Shown here piece by piece: positions 41,257 to 48,380 of a stretch of DNA of 64,000 nt. The position numbers and the translations under genes were made by a program. The notes under the pieces are model-generated. The model was not told the DNA's origin and did not search any database. It worked only from the letters and a program-made list of their open reading frames with translations. The stretch's first letter is position 1, and the number at the start of each line of letters is the position of its first letter. The DNA is from Halovivax cerinus (GTDB lineage: Archaea; Halobacteriota; Halobacteria; Halobacteriales; Natrialbaceae). Location: the NCBI RefSeq assembly GCF_024498195.1, contig NZ_CP101824.1, forward strand, positions 124,001-188,000. Reading direction: 5' to 3'.

Positions 41257-42210
41257 TCAGGAGTCTCGGCTCGGGAGCGACACGGTGACGACCGAAACCG
41301 TGTCGGCGATGTCTTCTTCGCCGAGGGCGATCGCGTAGGACGAGTGAGCCGAGGAGCCTGTGCTCGGTCCGTCCTCGAGGGTGCGAGTGACGGCAGTGAC
41401 GTCGGGAGTCGTTTCGACTGAGAGGGAAGCCGGTGGGCGATCAGCGAGCGCCGAGAGAGGCTCGTCGACCGCCCAGGACAACGACTCGTCGACGCCATCG
41501 TCGGATGGCCCGGCCACGGAGACGGTCGGGCGTGCGATCGACGGCGTCGGTTCGACGACGAGTACCAGCCGCCCGGGACGGCGCGAGGGAAAGGCCGTAC
41601 AGTCGCGCCGCACTCCCCTCGTGCGATCGGAGACGACGAGCGAGACGGTATCCGATCGATCGCACCGATAGAGTGAGAGGAGGTAGGCCCGGTCCGTGAC
41701 CCTCGCAAACGGTGCCGCGTCGACGGTGATCGACCGCCGTGCCTCCGCAGTCGTCGTACCGGTGACCGTCCGGGCCCGGATCCGAATCGCGTCGGTGACG
41801 GTCGTCTCGTCATCGCCAGGCGACACGGCGACCGTGTGCGCGGTCCCTGGCTCGATAGCGGTAAGTTCGAGCGATCGGGTGCTCTCACAGAGACAGCCCT
41901 CCGGCGCGGCGCGTCGAAATCCCAGTCGGTGGCTCGCCGAATCGAGAGTGACGGTGACGGCCGTCGACAGCTGGTTGGCGACAGCAAACGTCGCCGGCGC
42001 CGGCCGCGCCCGGTCGGTCTCGAAGAGCTGTCCGGCCGTCACGATGCCGTCTCCGTCTTCGATGAGACCGAGGTACGCGTCGGCGTCGTCAGCGACGGCG
42101 ATCGGACTTTCGCGCTCGATTTCCGAGGTTGGCGAGCCGAGCGATCGGGTGAGCAAGAGCGTTCCCGACCCGACCAGCCCCATCGTCGCGGCACGTCTCG
42201 TGTAATTCAC
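41257..42210 (-). CDS. Exported DUF1102-like surface protein
   Basis: 317 residues. The N-terminus MNYTRRAATMGLVGSGTLLLTRSLG is a signal sequence with paired arginines. Soon after comes PIAVADDADAYLGL, the strand-plus-turn motif seen at the mature start of the two DUF1102 proteins across the divergent promoter. The rest is beta-rich. No lipobox or membrane anchor is visible at the end (VSVVTVSLPSRDS). It overlaps the stop of the upstream regulator by 4 bases, so the two form one operon. It is probably a third subunit or cap of the same surface structure. Confidence 0.75.
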   Translation of the reverse strand: MNYTRRAATMGLVGSGTLLLTRSLGSPTSEIERESPIAVADDADAYLGLIEDGDGIVTAGQLFETDRARPAPATFAVANQLSTAVTVTLDSASHRLGFRRAAPEGCLCESTRSLELTAIEPGTAHTVAVSPGDDETTVTDAIRIRARTVTGTTTAEARRSITVDAAPFARVTDRAYLLSLYRCDRSDTVSLVVSDRTRGVRRDCTAFPSRRPGRLVLVVEPTPSIARPTVSVAGPSDDGVDESLSWAVDEPLSALADRPPASLSVETTPDVTAVTRTLEDGPSTGSSAHSSYAIALGEEDIADTVSVVTVSLPSRDS

Positions 42211-42839
42211 GGTCGATCACCCTCGTATCCGATGTCGATCGGGTCCTCGTCGATCCCGAGCCGGGACCGTCGCGAGTAGAACCGGTGTGCGAGCGCGAAC
42301 ACGCCGAACGACACGACGGCGAAGACGGAGCCCCCGTACGGTGGAAGCACCGAAAACGGGAACACCGAGAGGGCCGAGGCGGTGATGACGAGTCCGGAGA
42401 ACACGGCCAGGCCGAGGTAGTAATCGCTCCAGGGGTGGTCCCGTCCGTGGACGACATCCATGTAAATCTCGACGTCTTCGAGCGCGGGCGTCGGCGTGAC
42501 CGTCCCCCGCTCACGATCGAACGAGACGACGCCCGATTTATCGAGTTTCGGCAAATGTGATTGCTGTAGCGCCGTGTAAACACGTTTTCTATCGGAACTC
42601 GACACCTCCTCGTAGTCGAGGCCGTCCTCCCACGCCGCGATCTCCTGTGAAAGCGTGCCGATCTCGAGTGGTTCGTCCTCGCGGACGAGCGCGTGGAGGA
42701 TGTGACGCCGTCGCTTGTTTGCCAGCAGTTCGAACAGTTCACCCTCGGTCAGGTGATCGTCTGGCGACGGTTGTGCCCCTGCCCTGGCGTGTGTGTCACG
42801 AATTGCGCTTCCCATTCGAAGAAAAAGAGTACGATGCAT
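42207..42839 (-). CDS. Membrane-anchored winged-helix regulator (DUF7344-like)
   Basis: 210 residues from ATG 42839, 29-36 bases after the TATA box; ATG 42815 is the other choice. The N-terminal winged helix reads LFELLANKRRRHILHALV, then IGTLSQEIAAWEDG and KRVYTALQQSHLPKLDKSGVV, the haloarchaeal DUF7344 type. Two hydrophobic helices follow near the end (LGLAVFSGLVITASALSVF and GSVFAVVSFGVFALAHRF). A DNA-binding domain tethered to the membrane could sense the state of the envelope. Position at the head of the divergent surface-protein cluster suggests it controls that cluster. Confidence 0.85.
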   Translation of the reverse strand: MHRTLFLRMGSAIRDTHARAGAQPSPDDHLTEGELFELLANKRRRHILHALVREDEPLEIGTLSQEIAAWEDGLDYEEVSSSDRKRVYTALQQSHLPKLDKSGVVSFDRERGTVTPTPALEDVEIYMDVVHGRDHPWSDYYLGLAVFSGLVITASALSVFPFSVLPPYGGSVFAVVSFGVFALAHRFYSRRSRLGIDEDPIDIGYEGDRP

Positions 42840-42867
42840 ACCATAAACGTACGTGATTATCTCATTG

Positions 42868-42875
42868 TATAAATT
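42868..42875 (-). promoter_or_regulatory. TATA box of the DUF7344 regulator operon
   Basis: TATAAATT within a strongly AT-rich stretch (about 42835-42955). It is placed 29-36 bases before ATG 42839 on the minus strand, supporting that start and a leaderless transcript. Confidence 0.65.
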
Positions 42876-43009
42876 ACAACTGATAGCTGTATACTGTCTA
42901 TTGATATTCGATAAATTTCTCACTTACCGCCAGTATTCCTCGAAATTCCGCTGTTCGAGTGACGTCGAGAGCGTGCACGGTGTGGACCGGATCCGACTAT
43001 CACGAGTCG

Positions 43010-43077
43010 TTGACTGTCGGTCAATCGATCGTATCGGGCGACCGGCTGCGTACAGTCCGCCGTTGACTACCGGTCAA
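43010..43077 (+). promoter_or_regulatory. Candidate operator: two GTTGACT-N3-GGTCAA copies
   Basis: Two copies of GTTGACT, three bases, GGTCAA occur about 52 bases apart, each an imperfect inverted repeat (TTGAC/GTCAA). They lie between the regulator and the DUF1102 genes. The symmetry suits a dimeric winged-helix protein, possibly the divergent DUF7344 protein. Confidence 0.5.
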
Positions 43078-43161
43078 CCCGAACGGGAATTACTTCCACG
43101 ATCGTATTACAATATCACCTGCCAGTATCTGTCGATTCGCCCTTCGAGGGGCGAGATCACC

Positions 43162-43674
43162 ATGCAACGACGAAAATTCGTCATCGGAATGGGAGCACTG
43201 GCATCGGGCGCGGCAGCGACCATCGGAACTGGGGCGTTTACCTCCGTGACTGCCGCCCGCGACATCGACGTCGAGGTCGCCGACGACGCTTCTGCGTACC
43301 TGCGACTGAAAGGGGCCAACTCGCACTACGTCGTCGACGACGGTGTGGGCGGGACGCTCGAGATCGACCTCAGCGGGGACAACCCGACGCCTGCAGGCGG
43401 CACGGGTGTGAACCCGAACGCCGTGACCGAGTTCGGCGACCTCTTCGAGATCGCGAACCAGGGGACCCAGACGGTCACCGTCGAGGCGTCGAAGATGGGA
43501 CCGCACCCGGACGCCGTCACGTTCGAGGACGGAAACGGCACGTCGCTCTCGGACGGTATCGAACTCGATCCGGGTGAGAGTGCCATGATCAGCCTCACCG
43601 TGGATACGACGGACGGTTCGATCGGCCACGACGAGATGCTGATCGACTCGGTCGTCTTCCACGCGGTGGCCTGA
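43162..43674 (+). CDS. Exported DUF1102 protein 1
   Basis: 170 residues from ATG 43162; the longer frame upstream covers the AT-rich promoter and is rejected. The N-terminus MQRRKFVIGMGALASGAAAT is a signal sequence with a likely cut after TA/A near residue 31. The mature end begins RDIDVEVADDASAYLRL, typical of DUF1102 proteins. The remainder is beta-rich with FEIANQGTQTVTVEA and no hydrophobic anchor. It should be exported as a soluble or polymer-forming surface protein. The second DUF1102 gene follows after 4 bases. The nearby signal peptidase probably processes it. Confidence 0.85.
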   Translation: MQRRKFVIGMGALASGAAATIGTGAFTSVTAARDIDVEVADDASAYLRLKGANSHYVVDDGVGGTLEIDLSGDNPTPAGGTGVNPNAVTEFGDLFEIANQGTQTVTVEASKMGPHPDAVTFEDGNGTSLSDGIELDPGESAMISLTVDTTDGSIGHDEMLIDSVVFHAVA

Positions 43675-43678
43675 GACG

Positions 43679-44248
43679 ATGGATCGACGAACCTTCGTCC
43701 TGAGCGCGGGTGCCGTCGCTGCCGGCGGGGGTCTCGTGCTCGGAACCGGAGCATTCGACAGCGTCCAGGCGGAACGAGACGTCACGGTCGCCGTCGCCGA
43801 CGATCCCGACGGCTACCTCAGCATCAGACCGTACAACGGACCGAACGGGAACTACGCCACCCTGACGGACGGCGAGCTCGCGATCGACCTGACCGACGGC
43901 AACGGAAACGTCGCCGGCGAGGGCATCAACACGAACGCTATCACCGGGATCGCGAACCTGTTTACCCTCGAGAATCAGGGGACGCAGACGGTCGATCTGG
44001 GCGTGACACCGGTCGCGTTTCTCGACGTCGACTTCGGCGGCTTCCCGCCAGCGGTCCTCGGCGTCCTGCTCGTGCCGCAGCTGAGCTGGGGTGACTGGCA
44101 GTTCGACCCGGTCGACCAGTCGATAACGATCCCCGACATCGGACCCGGCGATGCGGTTCACTTCACGCTCGCCGCTATCGCCTTCCCGGACGGCGCGATC
44201 GACGACGTCGAGATCGACGACGAACTCGAGATAACCGCGGAGGCCTGA
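43679..44248 (+). CDS. Exported DUF1102 protein 2
   Basis: 189 residues. The signal MDRRTFVLSAGAVAAGG is followed by a probable AxA-type site at SVQA, and the mature N-terminus ERDVTVAVADDPDGYLSI parallels protein 1. Shared blocks include NAITGIANLFTLENQGTQTVDLG. A hydrophobic insert (FPPAVLGVLLVPQLSWGDW) in the middle has no counterpart in protein 1 and may pack against a neighbouring subunit. Two related exported proteins in tandem fit a fibre with major and minor subunits. Confidence 0.85.
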   Translation: MDRRTFVLSAGAVAAGGGLVLGTGAFDSVQAERDVTVAVADDPDGYLSIRPYNGPNGNYATLTDGELAIDLTDGNGNVAGEGINTNAITGIANLFTLENQGTQTVDLGVTPVAFLDVDFGGFPPAVLGVLLVPQLSWGDWQFDPVDQSITIPDIGPGDAVHFTLAAIAFPDGAIDDVEIDDELEITAEA

Positions 44249-44251
44249 CCG

Positions 44252-44374
44252 ATGAAACCAGCACCAACGCTCGAAGACTACGAGGAACTGGCCGGCGTCG
44301 AGATCGATCTGTCCGAGCACGACATCGACAGGGAGACCATCAACGCCGAACTGGAACGCCTCTACGAGGCGTAA
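44252..44374 (+). CDS. 40-residue acidic protein in the DUF1102 operon
   Basis: ATG 44252, four bases after the DUF1102-2 stop region, opens a 40-codon frame beginning MKPAPTLEDYEELAGVEIDL and ending INAELERLYEA with TAA at 44374. The third positions are G/C-rich and the predicted structure is helical and acidic. There is no signal, so it should stay in the cytoplasm. It could be a chaperone or regulator for the exported subunits. No family is recognised. Confidence 0.6.
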   Translation: MKPAPTLEDYEELAGVEIDLSEHDIDRETINAELERLYEA

Positions 44375-44462
44375 TCGAGCCGGGAGTGGGAACTTCCCCC
44401 GTTCCGCGACTCGTAGACATCCGATCAGACGGATCGGGTTCTCGGCCGATCAGTCGTCGAAA

Positions 44463-44525
44463 TTTCTCGATACATGGTATTAGTAGTAAGGCTTATAGCC
44501 ATTTGTGTTAAATACTGTTTTGACC
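44463..44525 (+). promoter_or_regulatory. AT-rich promoter of the signal peptidase gene
   Basis: A 60-base AT-rich stretch with CTTATAG at 44492-44498, about 32-38 bases before ATG 44530. It suggests that the signal peptidase and DUF5305 genes have a promoter of their own in addition to read-through from the DUF1102 genes. Confidence 0.6.
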
Positions 44526-44529
44526 CTCG

Positions 44530-45681
44530 ATGGTCGGTGCGAGATTGCAGCGAGTCCTCCTGCTCGTCGTCGGCATCGTCGTCTGTACCCTGCTACTCGG
44601 ACAGCTACTCGGCCAGCCGATTCTCCTCGGGTTCGTCGAGACCGGGAGCATGCAGCCGAGTCTCGAACCGGGCGACGGATTCGTCGCGATCCCGGCCGTC
44701 GTCGCCGACGACCCGGAACCGGGCGACGTCGTCGTCTTCGACGCTCGCACGATCCAGGGTGGCGGCCTGACGACGCATCGAATCGTCGACGAAACCGACG
44801 CCGGATACGTGACCCACGGGGACGCGAATCCGTTTACCGATCAGGACGGCGGTGAGCCGCCGGTACAGGACTCCCAGATCGTCGCGACGGTCTGGCAGGT
44901 CGACGGTGAAATCGTGTCGATTCCGTCCCTCGGCACGGCCAGTACGTCCCTCACCCGACTGTTCGACGTCGCGGGCGAGACCGTTTCGGGTGCGGTCGGT
45001 GCTCGCTCCGCCATCGGATCGACGGGAGCGGCAGTGGTGGTTTTCGTCCTCTCGACGCTGTGGTACGGTATCGAACTGGTTCGCGAACGAGGGGAACCGA
45101 GGGAGACGTCTCGGTTCGACGGGGGCGAACGCGAGCGACTCGATCCACGCTACATCTGTGTGGGATTCACGCTGCTCGTCCTCGTCGCCGCCGCCGCGGC
45201 CATGTTCGTCCCGGCCGGAGCCACACACTACGACATCGTGAGTGCCGAGTTCGACTCCGAGGACGAGACGGTGATCAGACAGGGGACGACACAGGAGACG
45301 GGCTACGCGGTAGCGAATGGGGGTTTCGTCCCGATCGTCTCGTACGTCGACAGCGGCGAGTACGTCCGGACACCGGCCGAACGGACGACAGTCGGACCGC
45401 GATCGGAGTCCGAGATACCGATCGCGATCACCGCACCCGACGAGACGGGGTTCTATCCGACCTCGGTGACCGAGTACCGATACCTCCAGGTCGTTCCTCC
45501 GTCGGCGATCGACGCTCTCTACGACGTCCATCCAAACCTCCCACACCTGGTCATCCTCGGCCTTCTCGGGGGCGCCACGTACGGTCTCGGCAGGGTGGCA
45601 CTCGGTCGGACGGACACTCGACCGAGACGACGGCGCTCGACCAGAACCGAGCGATCGCGACGAGGAGTGGACCGACGGTGA
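44530..45681 (+). CDS. Signal peptidase I, archaeal Ser/His type
   Basis: 383 residues, longer than usual. The first 175 form the peptidase: membrane helix VLLLVVGIVVCTLLLGQLL, catalytic Ser40 in VETGSMQPSLEPGD, His83 in GLTTHRIVDE replacing the bacterial Lys, and Asp98/Asp104 in HGDANPFTDQD. Two further membrane helices follow, with an exported beta-domain of about 130 residues between helix 3 and the last helix (VILGLLGGATYGLGRVAL). This extra domain and its place beside DUF1102 genes suggest a dedicated SipW-like peptidase rather than the housekeeping enzyme. Confidence 0.9.
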   Translation: MVGARLQRVLLLVVGIVVCTLLLGQLLGQPILLGFVETGSMQPSLEPGDGFVAIPAVVADDPEPGDVVVFDARTIQGGGLTTHRIVDETDAGYVTHGDANPFTDQDGGEPPVQDSQIVATVWQVDGEIVSIPSLGTASTSLTRLFDVAGETVSGAVGARSAIGSTGAAVVVFVLSTLWYGIELVRERGEPRETSRFDGGERERLDPRYICVGFTLLVLVAAAAAMFVPAGATHYDIVSAEFDSEDETVIRQGTTQETGYAVANGGFVPIVSYVDSGEYVRTPAERTTVGPRSESEIPIAITAPDETGFYPTSVTEYRYLQVVPPSAIDALYDVHPNLPHLVILGLLGGATYGLGRVALGRTDTRPRRRRSTRTERSRRGVDRR

Positions 45682-45685
45682 CCGA

Positions 45686-47149
45686 ATGACCTTCGACATG
45701 ACACCCCAGCCGGACGAATCGACGGCGTCGAGACGGCTCCGTGTGCGCGCATTCCTCGACGAGTACCGACTCCATCTGGTGGTAGGACTTCTCCTGGTCG
45801 TCCTGATCGGTGGCTGGCTGAGTTACGGCGCGTACGCCGCCCAGTCCGAGACGACGGAGCAGCGAGCCGTCGACACCTGGTCGCTCACCGGAGCGTTCGA
45901 CCACGGCGGTGAGGTCACCGAATCGACGACGCTCTATCGGCAGGGAACACGTCTCGAGGATAGACCGCGATACTTCACCGCCGTCACGCCCACCCTCGAC
46001 GGCGAGTATGGCCTGTCCTACGAGGCCTCGAGCGGAACGGCCGACGTCGACCTGGCGGTAACGCGAGTCGTCCGCTCGGTGGACGGGGAGACGGTCTTCT
46101 GGACGTCGACGGATCCGGTCGCGACGGTCAATCGGACCGGCGTGGGCCCGGGCGAGGCAGTCACCGTCCACGTCGAGGTATCCGTCGCCGAGACGATCGA
46201 CCGAATCGAGACGATCGAATCGGAGCTCGGAGCGAGACCCGGCGAGACCGAGGTGTTCCTCCAGGTCACCGCCTCCGTCGACGGCACGGTGTCGGGATCG
46301 CAGCGGTCGGTCGTCGAGCGCCACCGCATCCCCATCGCGATCGACGGCGGCTCGTACGCGGTCGAAGACGAGCGGTTCGAGGAGGCCTATCGGGACACGG
46401 AGACCGTCGCCGTGACCGCGCACTCGGGATCGCTTCGGTCCGTCGGCGGCCCGCTCCTCCTGGTCGGCGGGCTCGCAGGACTCGGGGGCGTCGCCGTCGC
46501 GTCGCGGCGGCTTCGTCGACCGACGGCAGTCGAACGCGAGTGGCTCGCGTATCGGGACGACGTCGAGACCCACGGCGACCTCGTGACGACGGCCAGCCTC
46601 CCACCCGCCGTCTCGGATCGCCCACAGGCGCCGGTCGATTCCCTGGCGGAACTGGCACACCTCGCGATCGATCTTCGGGCTGCCCTGCACTACGACCCGA
46701 TCGAAGAACAGTACATCGTTATCTGCGACGAGGTCTGTTACCGGTTCGAACCCCCGTCAGCGCCGTGGAACCGCAAAGAACGAATCGGTGACGGCACCCG
46801 GGCCGGAGCCGGCGAGCGCGCGTCGACTGACGCAGGTATCGCCTTCCCGCCCGGCGAGGGCGTGGCGGACGACGCGTCGACACGGTCCGACGCCGAGCCG
46901 ACGCACACCATCGCTATCGACCGGACGGGATCTGCCACCGATGCCGAAGAGGCGTCCGCCGATGCGCCCGGTTTGAACGCGAACGCGTTCACAGTGGACG
47001 GAATGCCCGTGTACTCGGGGACGGGTACCGAGACGGGAGACGAATCGGGGGACCGCCCCTCCAAATCCGACGATTCCAGCGCACGGAGTTCCGATCGTGA
47101 CTCGCTCGAAGTCGAACCGGCGGTCGACACCGACGCGACGGATCCGTGA
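45686..47149 (+). CDS. DUF5305 membrane protein
   Basis: 487 residues. A membrane helix (YRLHLVVGLLLVVLIGGWLSYGAY) is followed by an extracellular beta-rich DUF5305 domain (TWSLTGAFDHGGEVTES, then RPRYFTAVTPTLDGEY), a second membrane helix (GGPLLLVGGLAGLGGVAVAS) and an intracellular tail. The tail contains YIVICDEVCYRFEPP and a long acidic disordered region. It starts 5 bases after the signal peptidase gene. It could anchor or assemble the exported DUF1102 proteins. The function is not established. Confidence 0.82.
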   Translation: MTFDMTPQPDESTASRRLRVRAFLDEYRLHLVVGLLLVVLIGGWLSYGAYAAQSETTEQRAVDTWSLTGAFDHGGEVTESTTLYRQGTRLEDRPRYFTAVTPTLDGEYGLSYEASSGTADVDLAVTRVVRSVDGETVFWTSTDPVATVNRTGVGPGEAVTVHVEVSVAETIDRIETIESELGARPGETEVFLQVTASVDGTVSGSQRSVVERHRIPIAIDGGSYAVEDERFEEAYRDTETVAVTAHSGSLRSVGGPLLLVGGLAGLGGVAVASRRLRRPTAVEREWLAYRDDVETHGDLVTTASLPPAVSDRPQAPVDSLAELAHLAIDLRAALHYDPIEEQYIVICDEVCYRFEPPSAPWNRKERIGDGTRAGAGERASTDAGIAFPPGEGVADDASTRSDAEPTHTIAIDRTGSATDAEEASADAPGLNANAFTVDGMPVYSGTGTETGDESGDRPSKSDDSSARSSDRDSLEVEPAVDTDATDP

Positions 47150-47170: not shown

Positions 47171-48028
47171 TCAGGCCGTTCGAAGCCGAAGGCCGATCCC
47201 GTCGGGGTCGGCGAACGCGATCCCGTCGTCGGTCTCGGTGACGGACACGCCGGCATCTGACAGCCCATCCCGTGCGTCAGAGACGGTCGCGCGGTCGGAA
47301 ACGGTGAACTCGAACCAGTCGAGACCACGGCCACCGGCGGGGTCGGATCGGCCGTTCCACGCGTTCAGTCCGACGTGGTGGTGATAGTCGCCCATCGAGC
47401 AGAAGACGGCGCCGCGAGTCGCCAGTTGAACCCGCAGGCCGAGCGTGTCGGCGTAGAAGGAGCGGGCGGCGTCGAGGTCGGTCGTCTCCAGGTGGACGTG
47501 ACCGATCGTCGTCCCCGACGGAGCGGCGCCGGTCCCGTCTGAGTCCGCGCGGAGGGCATCCAGGTCGAGCGGGAGCGTGCGCATCGTGATCGAACCGTCG
47601 TCGGCCCGCGGCCAGGCGTCACGCGGCCTGTCGGCGTATATCTCGACGCCGTTGCCCTCGGGATCGGAGAGGTACAGCGCCTCGCTCACGTCGTGATCGG
47701 AGGCGCCCGACAGCTCCCACGCTCCCGCGCCGTTCCCGTCCCTTTCGATGCGTTCGAGGGCCGCCCCCAGCGCCGCCCGGGACGGGACCCGGAACGCGGT
47801 GTGGAAGAGACCAGCCCGGGTCGGCCCCCGTGGCGGGACATCCTCGTCCAACCGGAGGACGAGGAGCGCCGTTCCGTCGACGCCGAGCGTGGCTGTGGTA
47901 TCGGTTCGTGACTGGACGGTGAGGCCGACGATCGCTCGGTAGAAGTCGACGAGTTCGTCGAGATCGCCGACGCGAAGGGCCGCGCGACCGATGCGAGCGT
48001 CCGCCGGGACGAGTGGTGTTCGTGTCAT
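47171..48028 (-). CDS. VOC-family dioxygenase / glyoxalase-like protein
   Basis: 285 residues from ATG 48028. Two pairs of vicinal-oxygen-chelate modules are visible (ALRVGDLDELVDFYRAIVGL, then GHVHLETTDLDAARSFYADTLG), as in catechol 2,3-dioxygenases. Metal ligands are expected at H in GLFHTAFRVP, H in GHVHLE and the Glu of NGVEIY. The length and order match bacterial CatE/YfiE-type proteins. The substrate is unknown. The frame stays open upstream through a 27-bp repeat array, but the family start and a TATA-like gatatc (48056) support ATG 48028. Confidence 0.88.
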   Translation of the reverse strand: MTRTPLVPADARIGRAALRVGDLDELVDFYRAIVGLTVQSRTDTTATLGVDGTALLVLRLDEDVPPRGPTRAGLFHTAFRVPSRAALGAALERIERDGNGAGAWELSGASDHDVSEALYLSDPEGNGVEIYADRPRDAWPRADDGSITMRTLPLDLDALRADSDGTGAAPSGTTIGHVHLETTDLDAARSFYADTLGLRVQLATRGAVFCSMGDYHHHVGLNAWNGRSDPAGGRGLDWFEFTVSDRATVSDARDGLSDAGVSVTETDDGIAFADPDGIGLRLRTA

Positions 48029-48380
48029 CTGTGAGTGGTATCTGCGCGGAATCGTCGCCGATATCGTCGTGTTGGTTCGTTCGGTTTCTTCGGCAGTACC
48101 GGCACGTTCGGTCACCTCAGTAATGCCGGCACGTTCGGTCACCTCGGTAGTACCGGCACGTTCGGTCACCTCAGTAGTGCCGGCACGTTCGGTCACCTCG
48201 GTAGTACCGGCACGTTCGGTCACCTCTGCAGTACCCGCACGTGCGGCGACCCCGACACGAGTTGCGACGATGCGTGCGGTCGGACTGGACTAGACGGCTC
48301 CAGCCGTGTTTACTTTCGCGGCCGGCGGTGTAACCAGGTCACACGGGCGTTACCGGTCCACGTCCGGCCCAGTCGGTCGC
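48029..48380. other. Intergenic region dominated by a 27-bp repeat array
   Basis: A 352-base gap. Most of it is the 27-bp array (48074-48262). The rest holds the dioxygenase promoter and the 3' side of the beta-CASP gene. I see no independent gene. Confidence 0.6.
48074..48262. repeat. 27-bp tandem repeat, about 5 good copies plus 2 degenerate
   Basis: Clear units start at 48101, 48128, 48155, 48182 and 48209 (GGCACGTTCGGTCACCTC, then 9 variable bases), with degenerate copies at 48074 and 48236. On the minus strand each unit reads as nine residues, TERAGTTEV or similar, in frame with the dioxygenase and containing a GTG codon. Confidence 0.95.

Follow-up and report, generated by a model that had tools for sequence, protein, structure and literature searches.

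A conserved locus of Halovivax cerinus probably encodes a divergent Tat-fimbria with two tandem pilins and a microprotein

Positions 41257–47149 of the 64,000-nucleotide stretch of Halovivax cerinus DNA analysed here (hereafter the window; C1:124001–188000 of a 3.90 Mb single-contig haloarchaeal genome) very probably form a genuine and conserved locus for a surface fibre, one that belongs to the Tat-fimbriae ('tafi') as a divergent variant. We put the probability of this at about 0.85, a figure for the locus as a whole and not for each step of the mechanism proposed below. According to PMC12687288, which cites Galeva et al. (iScience 2025), Tat-fimbriae are thin filaments of haloarchaea with subunits that use the twin-arginine translocation (Tat) pathway. 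Two tandem exported proteins of the locus, D1 and D2, match the pilin of a solved tafi pilus (entry 9P0A), and they lie among the same set of partner genes as in a locus with all four curated Taf proteins, which together identify the locus as tafi. What the analysis shows directly is homology, fold match and synteny, together with the conservation of a microprotein gene and of a palindrome. The features are as follows (positions in the window).

41257–42210, minus strand: exp3, Tat-type exported protein of 317 residues, twin-arginine motif MNYTRRAAT
42207–42815, minus strand: DUF7344 winged-helix regulator with a C-terminal membrane segment (Pfam DUF7344, 97.9 bits; hydropathy)
43010–43024, no strand: palindrome TTGACTGTCGGTCAA, putative operator copy 1 (pattern count; conservation in orthologous intergenic regions)
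43063–43077, no strand: palindrome TTGACTACCGGTCAA, second copy of the putative operator, at a distance of 53 bp from the first
43162–43674, plus strand: D1, Tat-fimbria-type pilin of 170 residues (9P0A sequence match, TafE model, Foldseek)
43679–44248, plus strand: D2, second Tat-fimbria-type pilin, 189 residues (9P0A sequence and profile match, Foldseek)
44252–44374, plus strand: acidic microprotein of 40 residues without a signal peptide (conserved separate open reading frame behind D2)
44530–45681, plus strand: S26 signal peptidase of 383 residues (TIGR02228, 50.9 bits; conserved residues, hydropathy)
45686–47149, plus strand: DUF5305 membrane protein of 487 residues (PF17231, 176.4 bits; Pfam 7e-52)

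Gene calling recovered, at the same coordinates, all of the genes and the divergent operon that the original prediction had described from the letters of the sequence. The start of the regulator was moved to the MGSAIRDT codon, and its gene has four bases in common with that of exp3. Twin-arginine N termini are present in all three exported proteins (MQRRKFV, MDRRTFV and MNYTRRAAT).

D1 and D2 resemble a solved Tat-fimbria pilin

In a sequence search of the PDB, both D1 (E = 4e-10) and D2 (E = 1.5e-11 by sequence, 4e-18 as a profile) matched the pilin of 9P0A, an entry that Foldseek gives under the title 'Structure of Natrinema sp. J7-2 Tafi pilus'. The same entry was the top Foldseek match for the predicted structures of D1 (1.7e-4) and D2 (9.3e-5, probability 1.00), with an identity of about 22% over the structural alignment. 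Next for both models came the AbpA bundling pilus of Pyrobaculum calidifontis (7UEG; 3.2e-4 for D1, probability 0.99 for D2 and 0.99–1.00 over the two), although AbpA gave no match in the PDB sequence search and its host is hyperthermophilic and non-halophilic. Third for D1 (7.1e-4) was the thread filament of Sulfolobus acidocaldarius (7PNB), which likewise has no sequence match and does not appear in the matches listed for D2; this thread is a donor-strand-complemented archaeal filament (work cited in PMC9674648). A search of a viral structure library gave no significant match.

At the level of families, the NCBIfam models TafE and TafA (the TafA, TafC, TafE and TafF models are NF052520–NF052523) match D1 and D2 with E values between 8e-18 and 5e-7. 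The original prediction had assigned both proteins to DUF1102 (PF06510); against a gathering cut-off of 22.2 bits, this holds for D1 by the narrowest of margins (22.5 bits) and fails for D2 (15.3 bits). With its own copy included, D2 has 21 full-length orthologues. The D2 of genome G128, which is filed in the same genus as the genome analysed here, is identical to that of Halovivax asiaticus JCM 14624, and this places the window in the genus of H. asiaticus. The two arginines are invariant in 14 of these and nearly invariant across 24 pilins of the D1/D2 type, and D1 stands beside D2 in every locus read. Distant exported proteins resembling D1 and D2 also occur in one Methanomicrobia and one Methanofastidiosia metagenome-assembled genome (L084, L086), which suggests that the pilin family extends beyond the haloarchaea.

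The original prediction of a surface fibre with a dedicated, SipW-like peptidase is supported by the 9P0A homology, by the AbpA fold (D1 and D2) and thread fold (D1), and by the finding that 19 of 21 loci picked by pilin match have the peptidase next to the pilin; its choice of TasA as the closest relative is not. A true TasA/SipW system, that is, a Sec-exported biofilm-fibre operon of the camelysin type, would fit the dedicated Ser–His S26 peptidase, which scores weakly against the SipW model (21.7 bits, cut-off 190), the place of AbpA among the top folds (the AbpA paper, Wang et al. 2022, cited in PMC9674648, compares archaeal with bacterial biofilm fibres) and a TasA donor strand, residues 28–38 (PMC9674648), placed much like the N-terminal arm proposed below for D1 and D2. 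By contrast, the subunits carry twin-arginine signals, no TasA or camelysin family was matched in Pfam or NCBIfam, and the best match is a solved tafi pilin. AbpA and TasA, the two fibre proteins originally named for structural comparison, fared differently: AbpA came second, whereas TasA was absent from the top 50 fold matches of D1 and of D2. A TasA/SipW operon is accordingly highly unlikely, and we rejected TasA in the strict sense as the parent family in view of the Tat signals, the family models and the fold search. Bacillus TasA–SipW–TapA is only an analogue, sharing the logic of a dedicated S26 peptidase and of subunits with a freed N-terminal strand, with Sec in place of Tat.

The partner genes are those of Tat-fimbria loci

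To count partners, we used 21 loci, 20 of them from different genomes by pilin match and one a second locus of the H. cerinus genome itself. A DUF7344 homologue is present in all of them and an S26 peptidase in the 19 mentioned above. Nine loci from named Natrialbaceae (Halovivax, Natrinema, Natribaculum, Halopiger, Natronolimnohabitans and Haloterrigena) fully retain the order exp3–helix-turn-helix (HTH) gene, divergent from D1–D2–microprotein–S26–DUF5305; repeated over seven genes and nine loci, this arrangement is not due to chance.

An order-wide search yielded loci with full TafA matches. One of them, L021, exceeds every cut-off (TafA 250.6, TafC 567.6, TafE 219.2 and TafF 581.7 bits), and its further genes encode a DUF7344 regulator, a DUF5305 protein and an S26 peptidase that has the extra domains of the one in the window. 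Another locus, L026, has a pilin that is near-identical to that of 9P0A and matches it over its whole length (395 bits), and shares its HTH, S26 and DUF5305 partners with the window. Gene order would give the letter B to the regulator, which stands in the TafB position, D to the peptidase and G to the DUF5305 protein, but we do not use these as names here.

The third exported protein, exp3, carries the VADD motif that the original prediction saw in it, but it appears to be a TafC-like partner and not a third, equal pilin. Its gene follows the HTH gene, as that of TafC does, and while its own match to the TafC model is only 0.024, orthologues from Halovivax (1.1e-6) and from genome G117 (1.1e-7) do better. 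By position and weak N-terminal similarity, exp3 is TafC-like and a candidate minor subunit or adhesin.

The peptidase comprises a catalytic domain (S40, H83 and D98/D104), further membrane segments, a beta-rich domain and a last membrane segment; Ser40, His83 and the Asp residues are kept in ten loci. The region between the membrane segments, beta-rich as judged by sequence, is likely extracytoplasmic. Four S26 genes are present in the genome, two of them inside taf-like loci. The DUF5305 protein, which recurs in L021 and in the second taf-like locus, has an extracytoplasmic part flanked by membrane segments, followed by a cytoplasmic tail. Together with the peptidase it is the best candidate for a site of assembly or anchoring.

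The second taf-like locus of the genome lies at 1.58 Mb (L008:6184–11982, equivalent to G000:C1:1584183–1589981). Its composition is different: besides DUF5305 and S26 proteins it encodes a single pilin, an exported CARDB/DUF1102 protein where TafF would stand, a divergent DUF7344 regulator and a TafC-like protein, and it has neither the microprotein nor the palindromes. Proteins with a DUF1102-like N terminus stand in the TafF place elsewhere too: in Haloarchaeobius, one of 507 residues together with the microprotein, and in Halobiforma one without it. Natrinema and Natribaculum loci carry a protein of 140 residues (MDGxxIRRYLRALVAAIDDRQ...) between microprotein and S26 that has no counterpart in the window, at L073:7088–7510, L074:7059–7481, L075:7056–7478 and L077:7055–7477.

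A predicted cleavage site upstream of the VADD motif

A VADD-type motif is present in all three exported proteins, as originally described. Its reading as the mature start, however, is probably wrong. Of the 215 residues of the 9P0A pilin, 188 are modelled, which fits cleavage after A27 and a mature start at F28 (GTGA|FSSVEA), leaving exactly 188 and placing the cut upstream of VADD. Equivalent sites are GTGA|FTSV in D1 and GTGA|FDSV in D2, so that both are most likely cleaved at GTGA|F; the conserved stretch up to VADD would then form an N-terminal arm of the mature protein. A short beta-strand right after the cleavage site, another original claim, is not seen in the monomer models, in which residues 1–42 of both D1 and D2 have a predicted local distance difference test (pLDDT) score below 50 except for single residues. 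Low confidence in such models is what would be expected of a donor strand, and equally of any flexible or signal segment.

A conserved microprotein behind D2

Of 21 orthologous loci, 20 have a separate open reading frame for the microprotein directly behind D2 (the L049 copy, missed by the script filter, was identified by eye in the sequence), and in the remaining one, G117, it is fused to D2. In the window, it starts three bases past the D2 stop and in frame with D2 (TGA CCG ATG); in other orthologues, the start lies anywhere from four bases before to seven bases after the end of D2, in other frames. An annotation artefact and a stop-codon split of D2 were both rejected because the microprotein is conserved in other frames elsewhere. 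The G117 fusion (L058/L039, L039:5303–6064, minus strand), in which the microprotein forms the C terminus of D2, could alternatively be a frameshift in that single genome.

The consensus is PTLSDYEExADVEFDLSDxxxDRETINAELERLF. The ratio of non-synonymous to synonymous substitution rates (dN/dS) is approximately 0.23 as against 0.26 for D2, with dS near saturation; judged from these sequence comparisons, the microprotein is under purifying selection. Pfam and NCBIfam gave no family for it. When 243 genomes were searched with a profile, it was detected in ten: G117 and two genomes from other families, in each case behind a D1–D2 pair, and seven whose loci had already been read. It was not detected in G007, the genome of L026. 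When D2 and the microprotein were modelled with AlphaFold2 (AF2) as one read-through chain, the microprotein part formed helices with pLDDT of about 80–90, and the microprotein is predicted to be mostly helical.

One explanation for this constant association would be that D2 and the microprotein form a separate module, a secreted effector with its small immunity or inhibitor protein, that merely travels with the fimbria genes. The position directly behind D2, and only there, would suit this, as would a D1–D2–microprotein cassette found once with no peptidase or regulator nearby (L082). Yet D2 itself has the fold and the homology of a pilin and is accompanied by D1 in all loci read, and the G117 fusion suits a partner of an exported protein better than a cytoplasmic inhibitor; we regard an effector module as very improbable. 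Within a Tat-fimbria locus, the microprotein may instead found a family of fimbrial microproteins: a cytoplasmic partner that holds folded, strand-deficient D2, blocks premature strand exchange, and passes D2 to the Tat pore or rides through it. We offer this tentatively, as a possibility with the odds against it. If true, donor-strand pilins, whose folding has to precede export, would here be served by a chaperone.

Paired palindromes between the divergent operons

The pattern TTGACN5GTCAA (TTGACNNNNNGTCAA) occurs twice in the window, at 43010 and 43063, against 0.04 copies expected, and these are its sole copies in the 3.9 Mb genome. A reversed control pattern is equally frequent in the genome, so that the count itself is not unusual; what is unusual is that a single stretch of 70 bp holds both copies. 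Of 21 orthologous loci, 16 have one or more exact copies upstream of D1, against about 0.0 expected after shuffling, though the loci are related and do not count as independent. The consensus approximates TTGACCGNCGGTCAA. As a putative operator, the pair has a natural candidate binder in the DUF7344 protein.

Neighbouring features

Further downstream, a 27-bp tandem repeat (48078–48246; 5.6 copies, 89% matches) lies at the 5′ end of the open reading frame at 47171–48223 (minus strand), where it is read as TERAGTTEV repeats; the gene may in truth begin downstream of this repeat. A tRNA search and an Rfam scan found nothing.

Discussion

Like known Tat-fimbria loci, the H. cerinus locus combines twin-arginine pilins of one family with a TafC-like exported protein, a DUF7344 regulator, an S26 peptidase with an extra C-terminal domain and a DUF5305 protein. 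It differs from them in scoring below all Taf cut-offs, in having no detected TafF, in placing two tandem pilins in one operon and in its order of operons, and in carrying an additional conserved microprotein and operator palindromes.

Several observations weigh against this assignment. The fold matches of D1 and D2 have modest template modelling (TM) scores of 0.45–0.53. Measured against NCBIfam equivalog cut-offs of 190 (TafA), 410 (TafC) and 155 bits (TafE), the best scores among D1, D2 and exp3 are 39.7, 13.8 and 64.8, the last being that of D1. No TafF match was found anywhere in the genome with a model that scores L021 at 581.7 bits, so that this membrane-anchored part is either missing or replaced. 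The Haloplanus ruber cassette (L082:5447–6710) has no peptidase, regulator or DUF5305 gene within 6 kb, and is possibly served by machinery elsewhere in its genome. Finally, no filament has been observed in H. cerinus. As to the cut-offs, the L026 pilin, although of the 9P0A type, misses those of TafA and TafE too (76.7 and 56.7 bits); the cut-offs thus delimit a subgroup, and falling below them is no bar to being a tafi pilin.

The lack of an observed filament, together with the moderate confidence of the D1 model (mean pLDDT 68.5), would also suit a reading of D1, D2 and exp3 as monomeric exported beta-sandwich proteins of the surface, for example S-layer-associated or sensory ones, that build no fibre. 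Against this stand a sequence relative whose structure was solved within a pilus (9P0A), the assembly partners in common and the further archaeal filaments among the next folds, and we consider a purely monomeric role quite unlikely.

For a divergent Tat-fimbria, we propose the following mechanism. D1 and D2 would fold in the cytoplasm and exit through the Tat pathway on their twin-arginine signals. The linked S26 peptidase, SipW-like with its Ser–His–Asp residues, would then cut the signal, most likely at GTGA|F, and the freed N-terminal stretch (about F26–D42) would serve as a donor strand that fills out the beta-sandwich of the subunit following it. In this way D1 and D2 would be the subunits of a thin surface pilus, with exp3 as a minor or tip/adhesive subunit, and DUF5305 together with the peptidase's extracytoplasmic beta-domain would make up the membrane site of assembly or anchoring. 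The DUF7344 regulator most likely governs both divergent operons via the paired TTGACN5GTCAA palindromes. The microprotein may act as a dedicated cytoplasmic partner of D2, either an export chaperone or a Tat hitchhiker.

Relative to the sources compared, among them PMC12687288 and the NCBIfam Taf models, the conserved microprotein, the paired palindromes and the lack of a detected TafF are apparently new. Tat-fimbriae are a very recent addition among archaeal surface structures, and the locus shows that they reach well past the curated Taf models. Their export follows an unusual logic, in that a subunit that would lend a strand must fold in the cytoplasm before export. A microprotein tied to one pilin offers a handle on what prevents premature assembly, and a palindrome pair that is unique in the genome offers one on how the fimbriae are switched.

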